From NCBI GenBank assembly GCA_902761605.1, contig CACWLC010000003.1:1-64000 (forward strand): DNA of 64,000 nt, in the 5' to 3' direction. The notes below the pieces were generated by a model that was not told the DNA's origin, did no database searches, and worked only from the letters and a program-made list of their open reading frames with translations. Below are positions 160 through 55,750 of the stretch, one piece after another; within the stretch, counting starts at the first letter, position 1; each line of letters starts with the position of its first letter. The translations under genes and the position numbers were made by a program. Source of the DNA: an uncultured Prevotellaceae bacterium (GTDB taxonomy: Bacteria; Bacteroidota; Bacteroidia; Bacteroidales; Bacteroidaceae).

Positions 160-287
160 TGTTATTGGTTACAATGATAGTCATTTTTCATGAAACTAAT
201 GCAGAATATCACGATAATTAACATGTTCTCTCACTAAATTATCGTTTTTCTCATCTTTTCGGCTCCAAACAATACCTTTTTCCGCCC

Positions 288-365
288 AACCTATGTTCAT
301 TGCCTCACGAACATAGGTTCCCACCTCTTATGAACATATCTGAAAAGTCCCACGAACATATGTTC
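288..365. promoter_or_regulatory. Cluster of GAACATA inverted repeats (possible operators)
   Basis: AACCTATGTTC (288-298) and GAACATAGGTT (309-319) form a perfect 11-base inverted repeat with a 10-base spacer. A further GAACATA half-site lies at about 332-338, and a perfect 12-base palindrome GAACATATGTTC at 354-365. Three sites sharing one half-site within 80 bases look like operators for a dimeric regulator. The XRE gene reading away from this region is the nearest candidate. No binding data can be inferred from sequence alone. Confidence 0.5.
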
Positions 366-419
366 ATGAAAACAACGTTCTCCAACTGCCCATCTTTTTC
401 AAGAAAATGAGGCTTTACA

Positions 420-780
420 CATACTGTAGCCATACTCTAGCCTGCTTCTAGCCATACTCTAAGCATACTCTAGGCATACTCAAACAGTATGAGTAGAGTA
501 TGGATATAGCCTGCCATCTCCGACGCACCCATTATCCTCCTTCATGGGATCTTCTTGGAGTCTTCTTACCCTCTTCTTGGTGTATTCTTACCCTAACGAA
601 AGACTCGGCTTGGTTCCTCGAAGGCCTCTCGAACCTCTCCCAAAGGTCTCGGCTTGATCTCGGCCACCTCTATCCTCGGCCTATGCTACGCCTATCCTAC
701 GCCTACGCTACGCCCTTGCTACGATATAGCTACGACCTACGAACGACGGCGGAACGGACGGCGGAACGACCTTGCTATGT
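420..780. repeat. Array of degenerate 11-base units
   Basis: From 420 to 485 the sequence divides into six 11-base units close to CATACTCTAGC. From 546 to about 754 it divides into 19 consecutive 11-base units in a single register. These drift from GGGATCTTCTT through ACCCTCTTCTT and GGTCTCGGCTT to CGCCTATCCTA and CGACCTACGAA. The 60 bases between can also be cut into 11-mers but are less regular. Because 11 is not a multiple of 3, this is not a protein repeat; the open frame at 500-784 is a by-product. The period is close to one turn of the DNA helix. Function is unknown. Confidence 0.8.
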
Positions 781-972
781 GTAGGTTTTCTCAAAGACAA
801 CAAAAACCTTAGTCTTTTTATCCAGATAAAGATTATATCTACGAACAAAGTCGTACCAAAGATATCGGTCTGACGACACGTTAACATTGGCACGATTGAC
901 AGCGGTCAAAACATCTGTCCCATATCTATAATTAAGGTGGGACAGCAGTTTTGTGATTTCTTTATTTCTCAA
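775..972 (-). CDS. Possible small hypothetical protein or gene fragment
   Basis: A 65-codon frame reads MRNKEITKLLSHLNYRYGTD at its start and ends KVFVVFEKTYT. Composition is protein-like, with charged and aromatic residues spread evenly, unlike the repeat array next to it. The only start is a TTG at 972 and no ATG lies in frame. The frame stays open upstream to a stop near 1021, so it may be the tail of a decayed gene. No family was recognised and no promoter box was seen. It may not be a gene. Confidence 0.25.
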   Translation of the reverse strand: MRNKEITKLLSHLNYRYGTDVLTAVNRANVNVSSDRYLWYDFVRRYNLYLDKKTKVFVVFEKTYT

Positions 973-15098: not shown

Positions 15099-16601
15099 TT
15101 TATGCAGATATATTGAATGGTCAATACATTTTGGCAGTTCCTCCTGGTAGTGAGTAACATATATCAGAGTGACCTCAGGATTCTTACAGTAATCATCAAC
15201 GATATCCTTTACCATCTTACGGTTGATATCATCAAGACCATGAAGGGGCTCATCGAGAATCAGAAGGTCAGGCTCCTTTACGAAGGCTCTTGCCAATAAT
15301 ACGAGTCGCTGTTCGCCACTCGACATCTCATGGAACTTCCTGTCTTCAAGGTTCCCGATGCCAAAGACATTGAGCCATTTACGGCATTGTATCTTCTCAT
15401 CCTCTTTGGGACGTGTATATAGTCCTACAGTATCCTTCAGACCGCTTGCCACAATCTCTATCGAAGGGATATTCTGCTTGTAGCTGCGATGCATCTCGGG
15501 TGATACGTATCCGATATGTCTCTTGATGTCCCAGATACTCTCTCCCGAACCTCGCTTATGTCCGAACAAGGAAATGTCACAAGCATAACTCTGGGGATTA
15601 TCGGCACATACCAAAGAGAGTAGGGTGGACTTTCCGCTTCCATTCTGTCCCGACAGTGCCCAGTGCTCGCCCTGCATAACGGTCCAGTCAAGATCCTTAA
15701 GGATAGTCCTCGCACCATAGTGGATAGTGACGTGGTTGAAGTGAATGACTTCGTTTAGTTGACAGTTGATAGTGGATAGTGGATAGTTATGATTACCTTG
15801 CTCATTCTTACCCAAAAGGGACGATTCTTTTTGTATCTCATTTTGTGTCTTGGAGTAATCATATCTATCCACTATCAACTCTCCACTTTCCACTCTCCAC
15901 TGTCCACTATTCACTTTAGGCATCACTCGTGAATCCTTTACCTCCACGATATGCGTAATAAACTCCGGTATCTCATCCGTTTTGGCAAGCACCAGTATTA
16001 TCTGCAGTCCTTGTTCATGAGCCAGCATCCCAAGTAACTCTTTCAGCTGTTCTCTGGTCTCCTTATCCAGTCCGATAAACGGGTTTTCCATTATCAGCAC
16101 CTTCGGATTGGTAAAGAGCGATGATGCCAGCTTGTATTTCCTCAGTTCTCCACTCGACAACAGAATGATATATTTGTCAAGCAATGGCTCAAGATGAAAT
16201 ATCTCATATATATGTTTCTGTAGTGCTCTGCGCTCTGGAGTGTCTTCACCAGCCAACTGGTAAGCCTCTTCGAGTTTACTGCCTACAGTAGGTGTCTCCT
16301 CATCTATCTCCATCTGGTTCCAGCGTTGCTGAAGGAAATAGGTCCTGTCGTTATCTCCTCCGTAAGTATCACGGAAAGAGATATATTTCAGTTTGTTGTA
16401 TGGCTCATCAAACCCATATCTCACCATATCGGGAAAAACAGGATGTTTGCCTGTAAGCATATCCACAAACATGGTCTTTCCTGCACCATTTCTTCCGATG
16501 ATGGCAATATGTTCTCCTTCCTCTGAACAGAAGTTTACAGGTTCAGCCATCGACCACTCGGGCTTTCGGGCTCTTGCATTGATGAGTTCAATCGTCTTCA
16601 C
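15093..16601 (-). CDS. Double-domain ABC ATPase, ModF-like
   Basis: Two ABC nucleotide-binding domains lie in one soluble chain with no membrane segments, the layout of ModF/PhrA-like ATPases. Domain 1 has Walker A GRNGAGKT and signature LSSGELRK. Its Walker B reads VLIMENPFIGLD, so the usual D-E pair is E-N and the H-loop histidine is absent. Domain 2 is complete: GQNGSGKST, MSSGEQRL, LLILDEPLHGLD and THYQEE. Domain 1 therefore probably binds but does not hydrolyse ATP. The linker of about 55 residues is largely encoded by two 7-base repeat arrays (15756-15788 and 15866-15914). I favour the GTG at 16601 (VKTIELINAR); a TTG at 16616 lies inside intergenic repeat. It follows ruvC closely and may share its transcript. 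The role is unknown, perhaps metal or molybdate related by family only. Confidence 0.75.
   Translation of the reverse strand: MKTIELINARARKPEWSMAEPVNFCSEEGEHIAIIGRNGAGKTMFVDMLTGKHPVFPDMVRYGFDEPYNKLKYISFRDTYGGDNDRTYFLQQRWNQMEIDEETPTVGSKLEEAYQLAGEDTPERRALQKHIYEIFHLEPLLDKYIILLSSGELRKYKLASSLFTNPKVLIMENPFIGLDKETREQLKELLGMLAHEQGLQIILVLAKTDEIPEFITHIVEVKDSRVMPKVNSGQWRVESGELIVDRYDYSKTQNEIQKESSLLGKNEQGNHNYPLSTINCQLNEVIHFNHVTIHYGARTILKDLDWTVMQGEHWALSGQNGSGKSTLLSLVCADNPQSYACDISLFGHKRGSGESIWDIKRHIGYVSPEMHRSYKQNIPSIEIVASGLKDTVGLYTRPKEDEKIQCRKWLNVFGIGNLEDRKFHEMSSGEQRLVLLARAFVKEPDLLILDEPLHGLDDINRKMVKDIVDDYCKNPEVTLIYVTHYQEELPKCIDHSIYLHKN
15756..15788. repeat. 7-base repeat array inside the ABC ATPase gene
   Basis: Units AGTTGAC, AGTTGAT, AGTGGAT, AGTGGAT and AGTTATG encode part of the inter-domain linker (YPLSTINCQL on the minus strand). 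Confidence 0.75.
15866..15914. repeat. Second 7-base repeat array inside the ABC ATPase gene
   Basis: Seven consecutive units are TCCACTA, TCAACTC, TCCACTT, TCCACTC, TCCACTG, TCCACTA and TTCACTT. On the minus strand they encode SGQWRVESGELIVD. This is the clearest 7-base array in the window. Confidence 0.85.
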
Positions 16602-16642: not shown

Positions 16643-17195
16643 ATTTCTTTATTTTCTCCGGGTTTTTGTTTATGAAGTCCTTCCACCCGCGATATTTCAC
16701 ATCACTCTCAGGACGGCCCATCTGGAGATAGTGACAATAGGCAGCAGCAAGAGCGTCGGTGGCATCCATAAACTTTCCCATCTCCTCATTAGGGATCTTC
16801 AAGAGTCTCTGTAACATCCCTGCCACCTGTTCTTTCGATGCTCCTCCATTACCCGTAAGAGCCATCTTGATCTTCATAGGAGCATACTCGTGGATAGGTA
16901 CCCCATGATGGATAGCAGCAGCTATAGCAGTACCCTGAGCCCTTCCAAGCTTTAGCATCGACTGTACGTTCTTTCCGAAGAATGGAGCCTCAATGGCCAT
17001 CTCATCAGGCAGGAAACCATCGATGATGCTTGTTACCCGCTCAAAGATATGTCCAAGTTTCAGATAAGCATCAGGAAACTTCCTCAGGTCGATAACCCCC
17101 ATAGTCATCATCTGTGCCTTGCCATCAGTAACCTTCAGCAAGCCATATCCCATGAGGTTCGTTCCGGGGTCGATTCCAAGGATGATTTTTTCCAT
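16641..17195 (-). CDS. ruvC: Crossover junction endodeoxyribonuclease RuvC
   Basis: The 184-residue nuclease resolves Holliday junctions with RuvAB. The four acidic catalytic positions are visible: D in [15 protein letters not shown] near the N-terminus, E in [15 protein letters not shown], and the two aspartates in [16 protein letters not shown]. Start choice: the ATG at 17195 ([11 protein letters not shown]) fits the family. A longer start at 17216 would add residues (MVNGYWL) that are only translated 7-base repeat. The short 3' extension is lysine-rich. ruvC lies 34 bases after feoB, in a spacer made of AACCAAT-type repeats, and is probably read from the feoB promoter. Confidence 0.93.
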
Positions 17196-17244
17196 TAACC
17201 AATAACCATTAACCAATAACCGTTAACCATTAACCAATAACCAA
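17195..17244. repeat. 7-base repeat array at the feoB-ruvC junction
   Basis: Seven units (AACCAAT, AACCATT, AACCAAT, AACCGTT, AACCATT, AACCAAT, AACCAAT) fill the spacer and extend into feoB, whose last codons (SLVIG and stop) are written in this repeat. Confidence 0.85.
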
Positions 17245-19752
17245 TGAGCCGAATTGGTAGACGAGGGCGGAGACGATCCAGGCTACTGCAGTAGTGTAGA
17301 ATGCTGCAAAGCCAGCCCAGCGCCAGGAGCCTGTCTCATTCTTGATGGCTACGATAGTGGCGATACAGGGGAAGTACAGTAATATAAATATAAGGTACGC
17401 GTACGAGGCCAACGGGGTTATTCCCTCTTTCATCATTGCCTGACGCAGATGGGTATATTTCTCTGTATCTTCGCTGAAGTCCTCATCATCACCAAAGGAG
17501 TCATCACCAGAGTAGAGCACACCTATCGAAGAAGCCACAATCTCTTTTGCTCCGACACCACAAATCAGACTTACATCAAGTTTCCAGTTGAATCCCTGAG
17601 GCATGAATACAGGCTCAATGGCCTTACCTATACGTCCGATATAACTTTGTTCTTGCTGTTGTTCACGTGACAGTTCTTCATTATGTGGGAAATATCCTAA
17701 TGCCCATACGATGATTGATGCCACAAGGATAATACCTCCCATCTTCTTCAGATACTCCTTACCTTTCTCCCAGGTGTGACGCATGATGGCTTTGCCAGTA
17801 GGCCAACGATAGGGTGGGAGCTCCATCACGAATGGTGTGTCCTCGCCTTTGATAACAAGCGAAGAGAAGATCTTGCTGACGATTACTGCCACAACTATTC
17901 CTATGACATAGAGCGATAGCATCACCCATGAGCGATAGTGCAGTGAGAAGAATGTGCCTGCTATCATGATATATATCGGCAGACGGGCTGAGCAACTCAT
18001 AAAGGGCAGTATCATCATCGTGATGATCCTTGACCTGCGACTCTCGATGGTTCTCGTTGCCATAATCGCAGGGACATTACATCCGAAGCCCATGATAAGA
18101 GGGATAAACGACTTTCCGTGCAGTCCCATCTGGTGCATAAGCTTATCCATGATGAATGCAGCTCGGGCCATATATCCGGAGTCTTCCATCAAAGAGATGA
18201 AGAAATAGAGTATCAGGATCTGCGGGAGGAAGACGATAACACTTCCCACACCACCTATCACTCCTTCTATGAGCATTGCCTTCAGTGGTCCGTCTGTCAT
18301 CGTGGCTCCGATATAGTCTCCTAACCAGGCAACACCTTCATCAATCCAGTCCATAGGATACTGACCCAGAGAGAATGTTGTCTGGAACATCACGAAGAGT
18401 ATCAGGAAGAATATCGGGAAACCAAAGTACTTATGCGAGAGCACAGCATCTATCAGATGAGTGGTGTGATAGGTGTCTTCCTTACTTCCGGTCTTATATC
18501 CAGCCTCTCTGAGGGCACCATTGATAAAACCGTATTTGGCATCCATGATAGCTGTCTCAGAGTCGTTGCCTGTCTCTTCCTTAACACGTGTTGAGGCTTT
18601 GTCGCGCTCTGTGGTGAGGTTGTGGAAGTCATGCATACGGTTCTCTCCCTGCATGTGATGTCCCAGATAGTCGAGCACCTGACTGTCATGTTCCAGGAGC
18701 TTCAGCGACAGATATCGGGTAGAGTAGTGCTGGGTGATATGTTCGTCTGCCTTGAGGTATTTCTGGATATGTGCGATACCGTCTTCTATCTCATGGCCAT
18801 AGTTGATATGCAGGTGACGTGCAGCCTTGCTTGTTCCCTCATATACCTGGATGACAGCCTTGAAGAGTTCCTTTACTCCATCACCATTCTTAAATGATGT
18901 GGGTATCATCGGCATACCAAACAACTTGCTCAGTGTCTCGATGTTCACATTGTCGCCTCTTCGCTCAAACTCATCATACATGTTCAGGGCACAAACCATA
19001 CGTATGTTCATATCCACCAACTGAGTTGTGAGATAGAGGTTACGTTCAAGATTTGATGAGTCGATGACATTGATCACCACATCAGGCATCTTCTCTGTGA
19101 GATGCTCTCTGACATAGAGTTCCTCTGGGGAATAACAGCTCAACGAATATGTTCCCGGCAGGTCGGTGAGGTTAAACTCATATCCGAAGAACGATGCATG
19201 GGCCTCAGTGGCATCAACAGTGACACCTGAGTAGTTTCCCACATGTCCGTGAGCTCCGGAAGCGTAATTAAAGAGTGAGGTCTTTCCGCAGTTAGGGTTA
19301 CCTACGAGGGCAACGTTGATAGTACGACGCTCTTTCTTTGCGATGTGCTGGAGGTAGTCGTCTTCGTGGAGTGGAGTGGATAGTGGAGAGTGTAGAGTGG
19401 ATAGTTTAGAGTTTGCTACCGCTGCAGATTCTATCATTGAAGAATCCTGCGGGGCAGTAGTACGCTCGAGCTCTGCTCGCTTGCTACCGGAGGGACGCAA
19501 GAACTCTACACTCTCAGTTCTAAACTCTAAACTACTAACCACTTCAATCATCTCCGCCTCATGATGCCTGAGACTTACCTCATAGCCCATAAGTTTATAC
19601 TTCACAGGGTCTTGCAATGGGGCATTGAGCAATACCTCCACTTCTTTGCCTTTGATGAATCCCATCTCGATGATTCGTTTGCGGAATCCACCATGTCCTA
19701 ACACTTTGACGATAATGCCTTTCTCGCCAGTTTTTAAATCCGATAGTTTCAT
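17230..19752 (-). CDS. feoB: Ferrous iron transporter FeoB with fused FeoA domain
   Basis: The 840-residue inner-membrane Fe(II) importer has an N-terminal FeoA-like SH3 domain (MKLSDLKTGEKGIIVKVLGH, residues 1-75) fused to FeoB, a known Bacteroidetes arrangement. The G domain has G1 GNPNCGKTS, G3 DLPGTYSL and G4 ALNMYDE. Gate regions and about ten membrane segments follow, with the conserved GFGCNVPAIMATRTIESRRS core. The start at 19752 is set by the promoter box only 8 bases upstream (TAACTTTGC on this strand, 19760-19768), so the leader is very short or absent. The linker between FeoA and the G domain (about residues 75-135) is encoded largely by 7-base repeats (19366-19413, 19502-19540). 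The C-terminal codons also lie in repeat DNA. ruvC is downstream in the same direction. Confidence 0.94.
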   Translation of the reverse strand: MKLSDLKTGEKGIIVKVLGHGGFRKRIIEMGFIKGKEVEVLLNAPLQDPVKYKLMGYEVSLRHHEAEMIEVVSSLEFRTESVEFLRPSGSKRAELERTTAPQDSSMIESAAVANSKLSTLHSPLSTPLHEDDYLQHIAKKERRTINVALVGNPNCGKTSLFNYASGAHGHVGNYSGVTVDATEAHASFFGYEFNLTDLPGTYSLSCYSPEELYVREHLTEKMPDVVINVIDSSNLERNLYLTTQLVDMNIRMVCALNMYDEFERRGDNVNIETLSKLFGMPMIPTSFKNGDGVKELFKAVIQVYEGTSKAARHLHINYGHEIEDGIAHIQKYLKADEHITQHYSTRYLSLKLLEHDSQVLDYLGHHMQGENRMHDFHNLTTERDKASTRVKEETGNDSETAIMDAKYGFINGALREAGYKTGSKEDTYHTTHLIDAVLSHKYFGFPIFFLILFVMFQTTFSLGQYPMDWIDEGVAWLGDYIGATMTDGPLKAMLIEGVIGGVGSVIVFLPQILILYFFISLMEDSGYMARAAFIMDKLMHQMGLHGKSFIPLIMGFGCNVPAIMATRTIESRRSRIITMMILPFMSCSARLPIYIMIAGTFFSLHYRSWVMLSLYVIGIVVAVIVSKIFSSLVIKGEDTPFVMELPPYRWPTGKAIMRHTWEKGKEYLKKMGGIILVASIIVWALGYFPHNEELSREQQQEQSYIGRIGKAIEPVFMPQGFNWKLDVSLICGVGAKEIVASSIGVLYSGDDSFGDDEDFSEDTEKYTHLRQAMMKEGITPLASYAYLIFILLYFPCIATIVAIKNETGSWRWAGFAAFYTTAVAWIVSALVYQFGSLVIG
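19366..19413. repeat. 7-base repeat array inside feoB
   Basis: Units AGTGGAT, AGTGGAG, AGTGTAG, AGTGGAT and AGTTTAG encode SKLSTLHSPLSTP in the FeoA-FeoB linker on the minus strand. Confidence 0.8.
19502..19540. repeat. Second 7-base repeat array inside feoB
   Basis: AACTCTA, CACTCTC, AGTTCTA, AACTCTA and AACTACT-like units encode VVSSLEFRTESVEF on the minus strand. Between the two arrays lies non-repeat linker DNA at 19414-19501. Confidence 0.75.
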
Positions 19753-24075: not shown

Positions 24076-24106
24076 TTTATCATTTATCCTTTATCATTTA
24101 TCATTT
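24076..24106. repeat. 7-base repeat array after the phosphatase-fold gene
   Basis: TTTATCA, TTTATCC, TTTATCA and TTTATCA units occupy the short gap between this gene and the secA promoter, starting right at the stop codon. Confidence 0.8.
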
Positions 24107-55670: not shown

Positions 55671-55683
55671 TTCTCAAGGACTA

Positions 55684-55750
55684 AAAATTTGCGACCACGA
55701 GGAGGAAAATTTTGCAACCACGAGGAGGAAAATTTTGCAACCACGAGGTG
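55684..55750. repeat. Three tandem copies of a 22-23 base unit
   Basis: The units at 55684-55705, 55706-55728 and 55729-55750 each read AAAATTT(T)GCAACC followed by ACGAGGAGG, with few changes. Each unit contains TTTTGC, similar to part of a -7 box, but without the TA. Function unknown. Confidence 0.85.

Follow-up and report, generated by a model that had tools for sequence, protein, structure and literature searches.

The nearest described element to the array reported here is BrickBuilt, a minisatellite-bearing MITE of Porphyromonas gingivalis, which in the parts of the source compared has a 23-nt unit and a leader and tail with inverted-repeat ends (PMC4596501). RptR, by the corresponding parts of its description, is associated with a direct-repeat operator before restriction islands; the operator lies in the promoter of the regulator itself and has three repeats of 9 bp built on a TAGCTA core (PMC12255303). 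BrxR-type WYL regulators accompany diverse defence systems (PMC9122601, in part). Heptamer direct repeats (TAACTGA) have been described, in the portion compared, from Beggiatoaceae, cyanobacteria, and some Bacteroidetes, most of them immediately preceding a start codon (PMC4679880), and REP/BIME elements with RAYT transposases, likewise as described in part of the source, are dispersed extragenic repeats of alternating orientation (PMC2817692). A search of the open-licence literature, judged from the search results and with subscription literature mostly outside it, found no description of 11-bp arrays of such a kind in Prevotella.

Here, we describe two arrays of 11-bp units in a window of 64,000 nucleotides, the first 64 kb of a contig in a 2.73-Mb draft genome (G000). 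As far as the compared parts of the sources allow, the arrays are like BrickBuilt in their spacer-less tandem units, intergenic position, several dispersed copies per genome, and Bacteroidales host, with a unit of 11 rather than 23 nt. They differ in that the units drift, in that no inverted-repeat ends were noticed in the copies viewed, and in that in some species the array sits before swappable defence genes. As with RptR, restriction genes are accompanied by a small regulator gene and by short repeats placed next to one another, but here about 19 drifting 11-bp units often lie behind the regulator gene, which is of the XRE-type HTH class. As with BrxR, one kind of regulator stands beside differing defence systems (a helicase fusion, T5orf172/IIG/JetA, and YhcG); unlike BrxR, it belongs to HTH_26/XRE, and an array is absent from the part of the BrxR description compared. 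The heptamer repeats share the short, tandem, intergenic units, but in the portion compared their 7-nt unit is near-constant, and they are nearer to a Prevotella class of period 7n than to the 11-bp array. Since none of these systems matches fully, the array is classed as a variant of intergenic minisatellite in an unusual place. The features of the locus are listed in Table 1.

Table 1. Features at the left end of the window
Feature	Position	Strand	Basis
XRE-type HTH gene, truncated by contig end	1..141	-	tblastn with KHT3 XRE protein: 72% over 43 residues, window 138-10, E 3e-19; family HTH_26 from KHT3 protein
Palindromic ACGAACATA/TATGTTC copies in the array-to-XRE interval; possible operator	290..375		by eye
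Block 1: six head-to-tail 11-bp units of CATACTCTAGC type	420..485		TRF, lag scan
Block 1 continuation in reverse-complement units (GTATGAG, GAGTATG)	about 485..503		sequence
Junction; interval of about 610 bp in Tb.RUG.304, containing a 113-aa ORF; deletion in window inferred	515..545		comparison with Tb.RUG.304
Block 2: drifting 11-mers in ordered series; gene-sense strand is minus	546..740	-	lag scan, alignments
12-bp tandem repeat GAACGGACGGCG, interrupting the 11-bp register	741..768		TRF; absent in Tb.RUG.304
p65, 65-aa ORF, no family above cut-off; 3' end abuts block 2	775..972	-	ORF list, Pfam

The 11-base period proposed by the sequence-only reading is significant. Compared with 300 dinucleotide-preserving shuffles, lag-11 identity is 0.54 (z 11.9) over 420-780, 0.73 (z 7.3) at 420-485, and 0.56 (z 9.5) at 546-770. 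Lags 22, 33, and 44 peak too, and the best other lag within 2-45 has a z of at most 2.4. With TRF, 11-bp periods are called at 420-481, 550-589, and 679-723, and 22-bp periods at 550-594 and 670-714. The six-unit block at 420-485 is as that reading described it, and the single register that it followed from 546 to about 754 holds to about 740, where the 12-bp tandem repeat interrupts it. Its exclusion of a protein repeat also stands: a Pfam search at E up to 1 gave nothing for the sole listed ORF across the array (500-784), and gaps between copies are mostly 11, 22, or 44 bp. A turn-over into reverse-complement units similar to that of block 1 was seen by eye at three other loci (L002, L003, and L012).

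Block 2 changes gradually, as had been proposed. Unit-to-unit identity falls from 0.57 between neighbours to 0.36 at seven units apart, is 0.48 at eleven, and is then lower again, with a composition-based chance level of 0.27. The unit type shifts along the array from TCTTCTTACCC to GCTACGCCTAT, and the two ends have little in common. The greater likeness of adjacent than of distant units agrees with a neutral minisatellite, in which slippage would make intergenic 11-bp units that diverge by point mutation, are carried or spread with neighbouring DNA, and have no function. BrickBuilt, in the parts of its description compared, is such an element in the same bacterial order (PMC4596501). This neutral account is the main rival to the explanation favoured below; we regard it as possible, if somewhat doubtful, and the evidence on it is given as it arises.

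What had been taken for one array of about 360 bases is really two. In the Prevotella MAG Tb.RUG.304 (L223), which matches window 402-527 at 99.2%, block 2 begins about 610 bp beyond block 1, and a 113-aa ORF lies in the interval; the start of L147 (in G160) is identical to that of L223. From this comparison, the adjoining of the blocks in the window would be explained most simply by a deletion at 515-545. Deletion from array to array was rejected as the cause of the loss of the 113-aa ORF, because the junction lies outside any array.

The sequence-only reading had made the absence of similar arrays from related genomes a point against itself, and such arrays were found in genomes of the same genus. 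Among 299 sampled same-genus genomes, 32 match block 2 and 36 match block 1, the window's own genome included in both counts and many of the matches being short. In a mixed set of 60 genomes, 24 of them from other families, 6 match including its own, and 1 of these is of another family. The exact 21-bp block 2 junction occurs in 12 records of a named collection, including P. ruminicola KHT3, P. aff. ruminicola Tc2-24, and RUG MAGs, whose name points to the rumen; conservation at the junction is biased in these 12 copies, since they were picked by it. Four pairs of records are probably the same genomes (G007/RUG10775, G033/RUG11071, G160/Tb.RUG.304, and G293/KHT3). A blastn search of window 400-800 against phages and plasmids gave no match. 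For two other arrays of G000, searches for empty sites were filled with other dispersed repeats.

The order of the units is kept between copies. The KHT3 array aligns with that of the window at 94.6% over 186 bp with two 11-bp gaps and a score of 153, compared with 38 when the units are shuffled, and in every one of the 15 pairwise array alignments shuffling the units cuts the score to about half or less. The gaps in these 15 alignments are multiples of 11 in 31 of 38 cases. An alignment of 10 copies has 90 pairwise internal gaps, of which 51 are multiples of 11 (35 exactly 11) and 39 are not (13 of them single bases). Gaps counted pairwise in this way do not represent independent events. Conservation specific to a phase of the 11-bp unit was not significant in the same alignment (p 0.19, at low power). 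Unit-sized gaps and the lack of a conserved phase are in keeping with the neutral account, and the preservation of unit order across species and loci argues against it. Palindromic repeats of CTTGCTCACGCTCGGAATAGCCCAAACGAGTTTGGCTCTCC type were seen by eye inside copies of the 11-bp array at L229, L230, and L153.

Gene context differs between copies. In KHT3, Tc2-24, RUG11782, and RUG647, an array on the cargo side follows a 76-aa HTH_26 (XRE) gene, and the distance from the XRE stop to the next ATG is 260, 245, 149, and 150 bp, respectively; in G007, a Fic gene and not an XRE gene lies upstream of that array. The block 2 junction is 70 to 97 nt from the ATG at eight loci (KHT3 and G293 among them being probably one genome); L226 lacks the second half of the junction pattern and was left out of these distances. 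The A-rich leader before the ATG is alike between loci and by eye seems to carry on the 11-base rhythm, whereas the first 300 bp of the cargo align between loci no better than unrelated sequence. In G007, the cargo is DUF2971 followed by HsdM, and in KHT3 it is a DEAD/UvrD helicase fusion. Tc2-24 has T5orf172, a type IIG restriction enzyme, and JetA (DUF3375), and UBA2742 shares its first cargo gene. RUG647 and RUG11782 carry a DUF1016/YhcG nuclease, and SRR11784291 a short ORF without an assigned family. In G074, the helicase fusion comes 28 bp after the array. Four contexts are well supported, in that the array runs to the ATG of unrelated cargo; the XRE gene is upstream in three of them. 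Weaker cases are G181, with an array behind XRE, a first long ORF without a family, and a C5 methylase at 794 bp, and G095 and G287, in which a protein without an assigned family follows the array. In G208 (L169), a type IV enzyme lies behind XRE, but the array match is just 25 bp and has no lag-11 signal (0.28).

The window, G007, and L232 share an arrangement of p65 3' end, array, and XRE start. Tb.RUG.304 has p65 and the array on a contig that stops short of XRE, and in KHT3, UBA4339, and G245, p65 and XRE are near neighbours with no array. The array stands before XRE in the window and after XRE in KHT3. The window is a variant with the array between p65 and XRE, and any cargo lies past the contig end. 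Window 275-386 aligns with G007 at 84%.

A protein, either the XRE product or another, might be bound along the array once per helical turn, as an operator or scaffold. The period of 11 bp is close to one turn, a small HTH gene is adjacent at 9 of 31 loci, and in the part of the source compared the sites bound by RptR are short direct repeats, next to one another, upstream of a restriction island (PMC12255303). A further point in its favour is the 22-bp lattice of G016 described below, in which cores on opposite strands also keep the spacing (multiples of 11 in 45 of 50 pairs). In the window, however, the unit varies along the array and no phase of it is significantly conserved, other palindromes stand before XRE (290-375), and in KHT3 the array follows the XRE gene instead of preceding it. 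Relaxed B-DNA has 10.5 bp per turn. A period of 11.0 bp cannot hold one face in such DNA, so that over about 19 units the face drifts roughly one turn. The suggestion of a protein lining one face of the DNA is therefore unsupported for the window array, and we consider a bound operator or scaffold improbable.

An XRE homologue is present in the fetched stretch at 9 of 31 block 2 loci and 2 of 31 block 1 loci, compared with 0 in 1,200 kb of control sequence sampled from three genomes. The block 2 count covers 31 of 32 loci, L164 having been dropped when its array was not found again by local search. No XRE homologue is in the fetched stretch at the other 22 block 2 loci, and this lack of XRE linkage at the majority of array loci favours the neutral account. 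At 24 of the 29 loci with a known upstream ORF, that ORF runs in the same direction as block 2 and ends before it, a non-random orientation that speaks against neutrality. These 24 comprise 14 tandem-sense loci, 8 convergent loci, and 2 without a downstream ORF; the exceptions are 4 tandem-antisense and 1 divergent, and 4 loci have a side unknown in the gap-type count. Because convergent gaps fit the rule by definition, the informative contrast is 14 to 4. Block 1 has no clear rule (9 tandem-sense, 1 convergent, 7 tandem-antisense, 3 divergent, and 11 with a side unknown). All orientation counts include open-ended ORFs and rest on mechanical ORFs, not curated genes.

This orientation would also fit a transcribed leader or trailer that acts as RNA, on transcript stability, termination, or translation, with recombination uninvolved. 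The gene-strand array follows a 3' end at those 24 of 29 loci, with tandem-sense exceeding tandem-antisense gaps; an A-rich leader lies upstream of the ATG; and the array has 58.7% purine on the minus strand and a C-rich plus strand (75 C, 50 G). Opposed to this are the 8 convergent loci that satisfy the rule by definition and the RNA predictions. Predicted folds are no more stable than those of shuffled sequence for either strand of block 2 (z 0.46 and 1.90) or for the minus strand of block 1 (z -1.59), Rfam gave 0 matches at the gathering score within the window, and a tRNA/tmRNA scan of the window found nothing. We judge action as RNA alone very unlikely. The lack of a stable fold is again consistent with a neutral repeat.

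Arrays and their neighbours differ in similarity. KHT3 and Tc2-24, with the array at the same kind of place, share 97.8% in XRE and 85.7% in array and leader. The KHT3 array is 94.6% like that of the window though at another kind of place, and the window XRE is 65% identical over its remaining 132 nt. Between KHT3 and G007, the array (85.6%) exceeds XRE (72.7%), which is unexpected for a neutral spacer; in G007, however, the array compared does not adjoin that XRE gene directly. Conservation of the array is thus higher than that of the neighbouring coding sequence in one pair and lower in another, unlike a passively inherited spacer, and we infer that arrays have been exchanged between loci. 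The proposal that the array is a recombination substrate gains indirect support from the dispersed copies, the whole-unit gaps, the independence of array similarity from the neighbouring gene, and the differing cargo behind the same array and leader.

The explanation that we favour, with a confidence just short of even, is that the array is a dispersed non-coding minisatellite, the copies of which differ mainly by whole 11-bp units, and that it likely functions both as a transcribed leader and as a common seam for recombination, placed between a small XRE control gene and restriction or defence genes that can be exchanged. Slipped-strand replication would add and remove 11-bp units, and hence cause the drift; homologous recombination within the array and leader would swap the cargo genes; and the array would be transcribed. 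In favour of the seam count the kept unit order and unit-sized gaps, the unrelated cargo behind a similar leader, the mismatch between array and XRE similarity, the XRE homologue at 9 of 31 array loci compared with 0 in the control sequence, the orientation at 24 of 29 loci, and the p65-XRE pairs without an array. With 22 of 31 array loci lacking a nearby XRE gene, such a seam would explain some copies only, and neutral hitch-hiking is a strong rival. Further points against the seam are the XRE gene at 2 of 31 loci and the absence of an orientation rule for block 1, the Fic gene in place of XRE in G007, the 25-bp match in G208, and the 39 of 90 gaps off multiples of 11. If the seam reading is true, it offers a testable route for exchanging anti-phage systems under one retained control gene and leader, and the array would be a sequence tag for finding such loci.

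Tandem repeats of other periods were found by a lag scan of coding and non-coding DNA, for which a control of shuffled 150-base blocks gave 0. Given as lag (count), G000 has 7 (22), 14 (11), 21 (6), 11 (5), and 22 (8) in 464 kb, with others at most 4; G016 has 7 (7), 14 (6), 22 (12), and 12 (4) in 400 kb, with others 1 or 0; and G007 has 7 (39), 14 (20), 21 (7), and 22 (9) in 400 kb, and also 9 (8), 18 (4), and 28 (4). Among non-coding arrays, further same-genus genomes have 7 (15), 14 (8), 21 (6), 28 (6), and 22 (4) in 242 kb, and also 8 (4), 12 (4), and 24 (3); other families have 7 (2) and 22 (1) in 273 kb, the highest being 10 (4); and 50 kb of E. coli has none. Distances between direct 8-mer pairs agree for 7n and 22, with G000 peaks also at 8, 12, and 23 and peaks in other families at 8, 16, 10, 20, 23, and 24. 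In the non-ORF DNA of the 464 kb of G000, TRF reports 11, 7, 7, and 6 arrays of periods 7, 8, 12, and 22, respectively, a less clean 7n/11n pattern than that of the lag scan. Periods 7n and 22 are enriched in Prevotella but not exclusive to it, and 7n arrays outnumber every other repeat class in the samples from G000 and G007. Drifting 7-bp tandem arrays were seen in the window at 15865-15915, 17192-17245, 19374-19412, and 24076-24106, among others.

In G016 (L066-L085), intergenic TGAYGCA sites form a lattice: within 120 bp, the distance is a multiple of 11, and nearly always of 22, for 53 of 56 pairs on the same strand and 45 of 50 on opposite strands, with several pairs per array that are not independent. 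Direct TGAYGCA pairs number 168 in G016, 45 in G129, 34 in G310, 18 in G109, 14 in G249, and 0 in G000, and occur at least once in 53 of 299 genomes. The reversed control ACGYAGT-N15-ACGYAGT has 51 in G198, 9 in G069, and 0 to 2 in other genomes; its abundance in G198 and G069 makes further species-specific 22-bp lattices with other cores likely. Spacers in G016 are equally alike between arrays (0.448) and at 22 bp within arrays (0.44; 18 pairs), which argues against recent local duplication there, unlike block 2. Predicted folding of the G016 arrays is somewhat stronger than expected by chance (mean z -2.25, n = 25, compared with -0.68 for 40 control stretches). These arrays occur in tandem (13), divergent (6), and convergent (5) gaps without preference, and in long gaps they tend to be central (asymmetry below 0.35 in 18 of 24). 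As the window unit has no significantly conserved phase and the array ends are little alike, G016 is a better fit for a protein lattice than the window is. Several palindromic units were seen in other genomes, for example G129 and G310.

Block 1 and the G016 arrays are like REP/BIME elements, as described in part of the source (PMC2817692), in being dispersed and extragenic, and they may share the alternating orientation; block 1 turns over at about 485-503, and block 2 is without inverted units. A search for Y1_Tnp (RAYT) found 0 in G000, which is 84.69% complete, and none in four lattice-rich genomes; Y1_Tnp is present in 8 of 18 genomes and does not track lattice content. A RAYT transposase as the mover of the arrays was rejected on the zero in G000 and this lack of correlation.

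A wider proposal is that Prevotella has a genus-wide non-coding repeat code of periods 7n and 11n/22 with species-specific cores, in which one 11-bp family would be the exchange seam of a defence locus, with different restriction systems inserted downstream of a single XRE gene, array, and leader; we hold this to be rather unlikely. The enrichment of 7n and 22 and the phase kept by inverted 22-bp units in one species pose the question of whether replication mechanics or a DNA-binding protein sets bacterial repeat length.

The window contains further repeats. Dispersed repeats to the right of the array, at 1000-1077 and 1226-1333, have matches in 21 genomes of the 60, none outside this genus; the copies are many, several being at contig ends and some paired a few kb apart. 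A 23-bp-unit tandem array at 55683-55748 (2.9 copies, 95% matches) equals BrickBuilt in unit length, as given in the part of the source compared (PMC4596501). A 16-bp direct repeat, ATACCTCTCTCTCCGC, was seen by eye at 1378-1393 and 2459-2474, around about 1.1 kb with a HicB-like antitoxin gene (1948-2289), and its two copies may be the ends of an inserted element.
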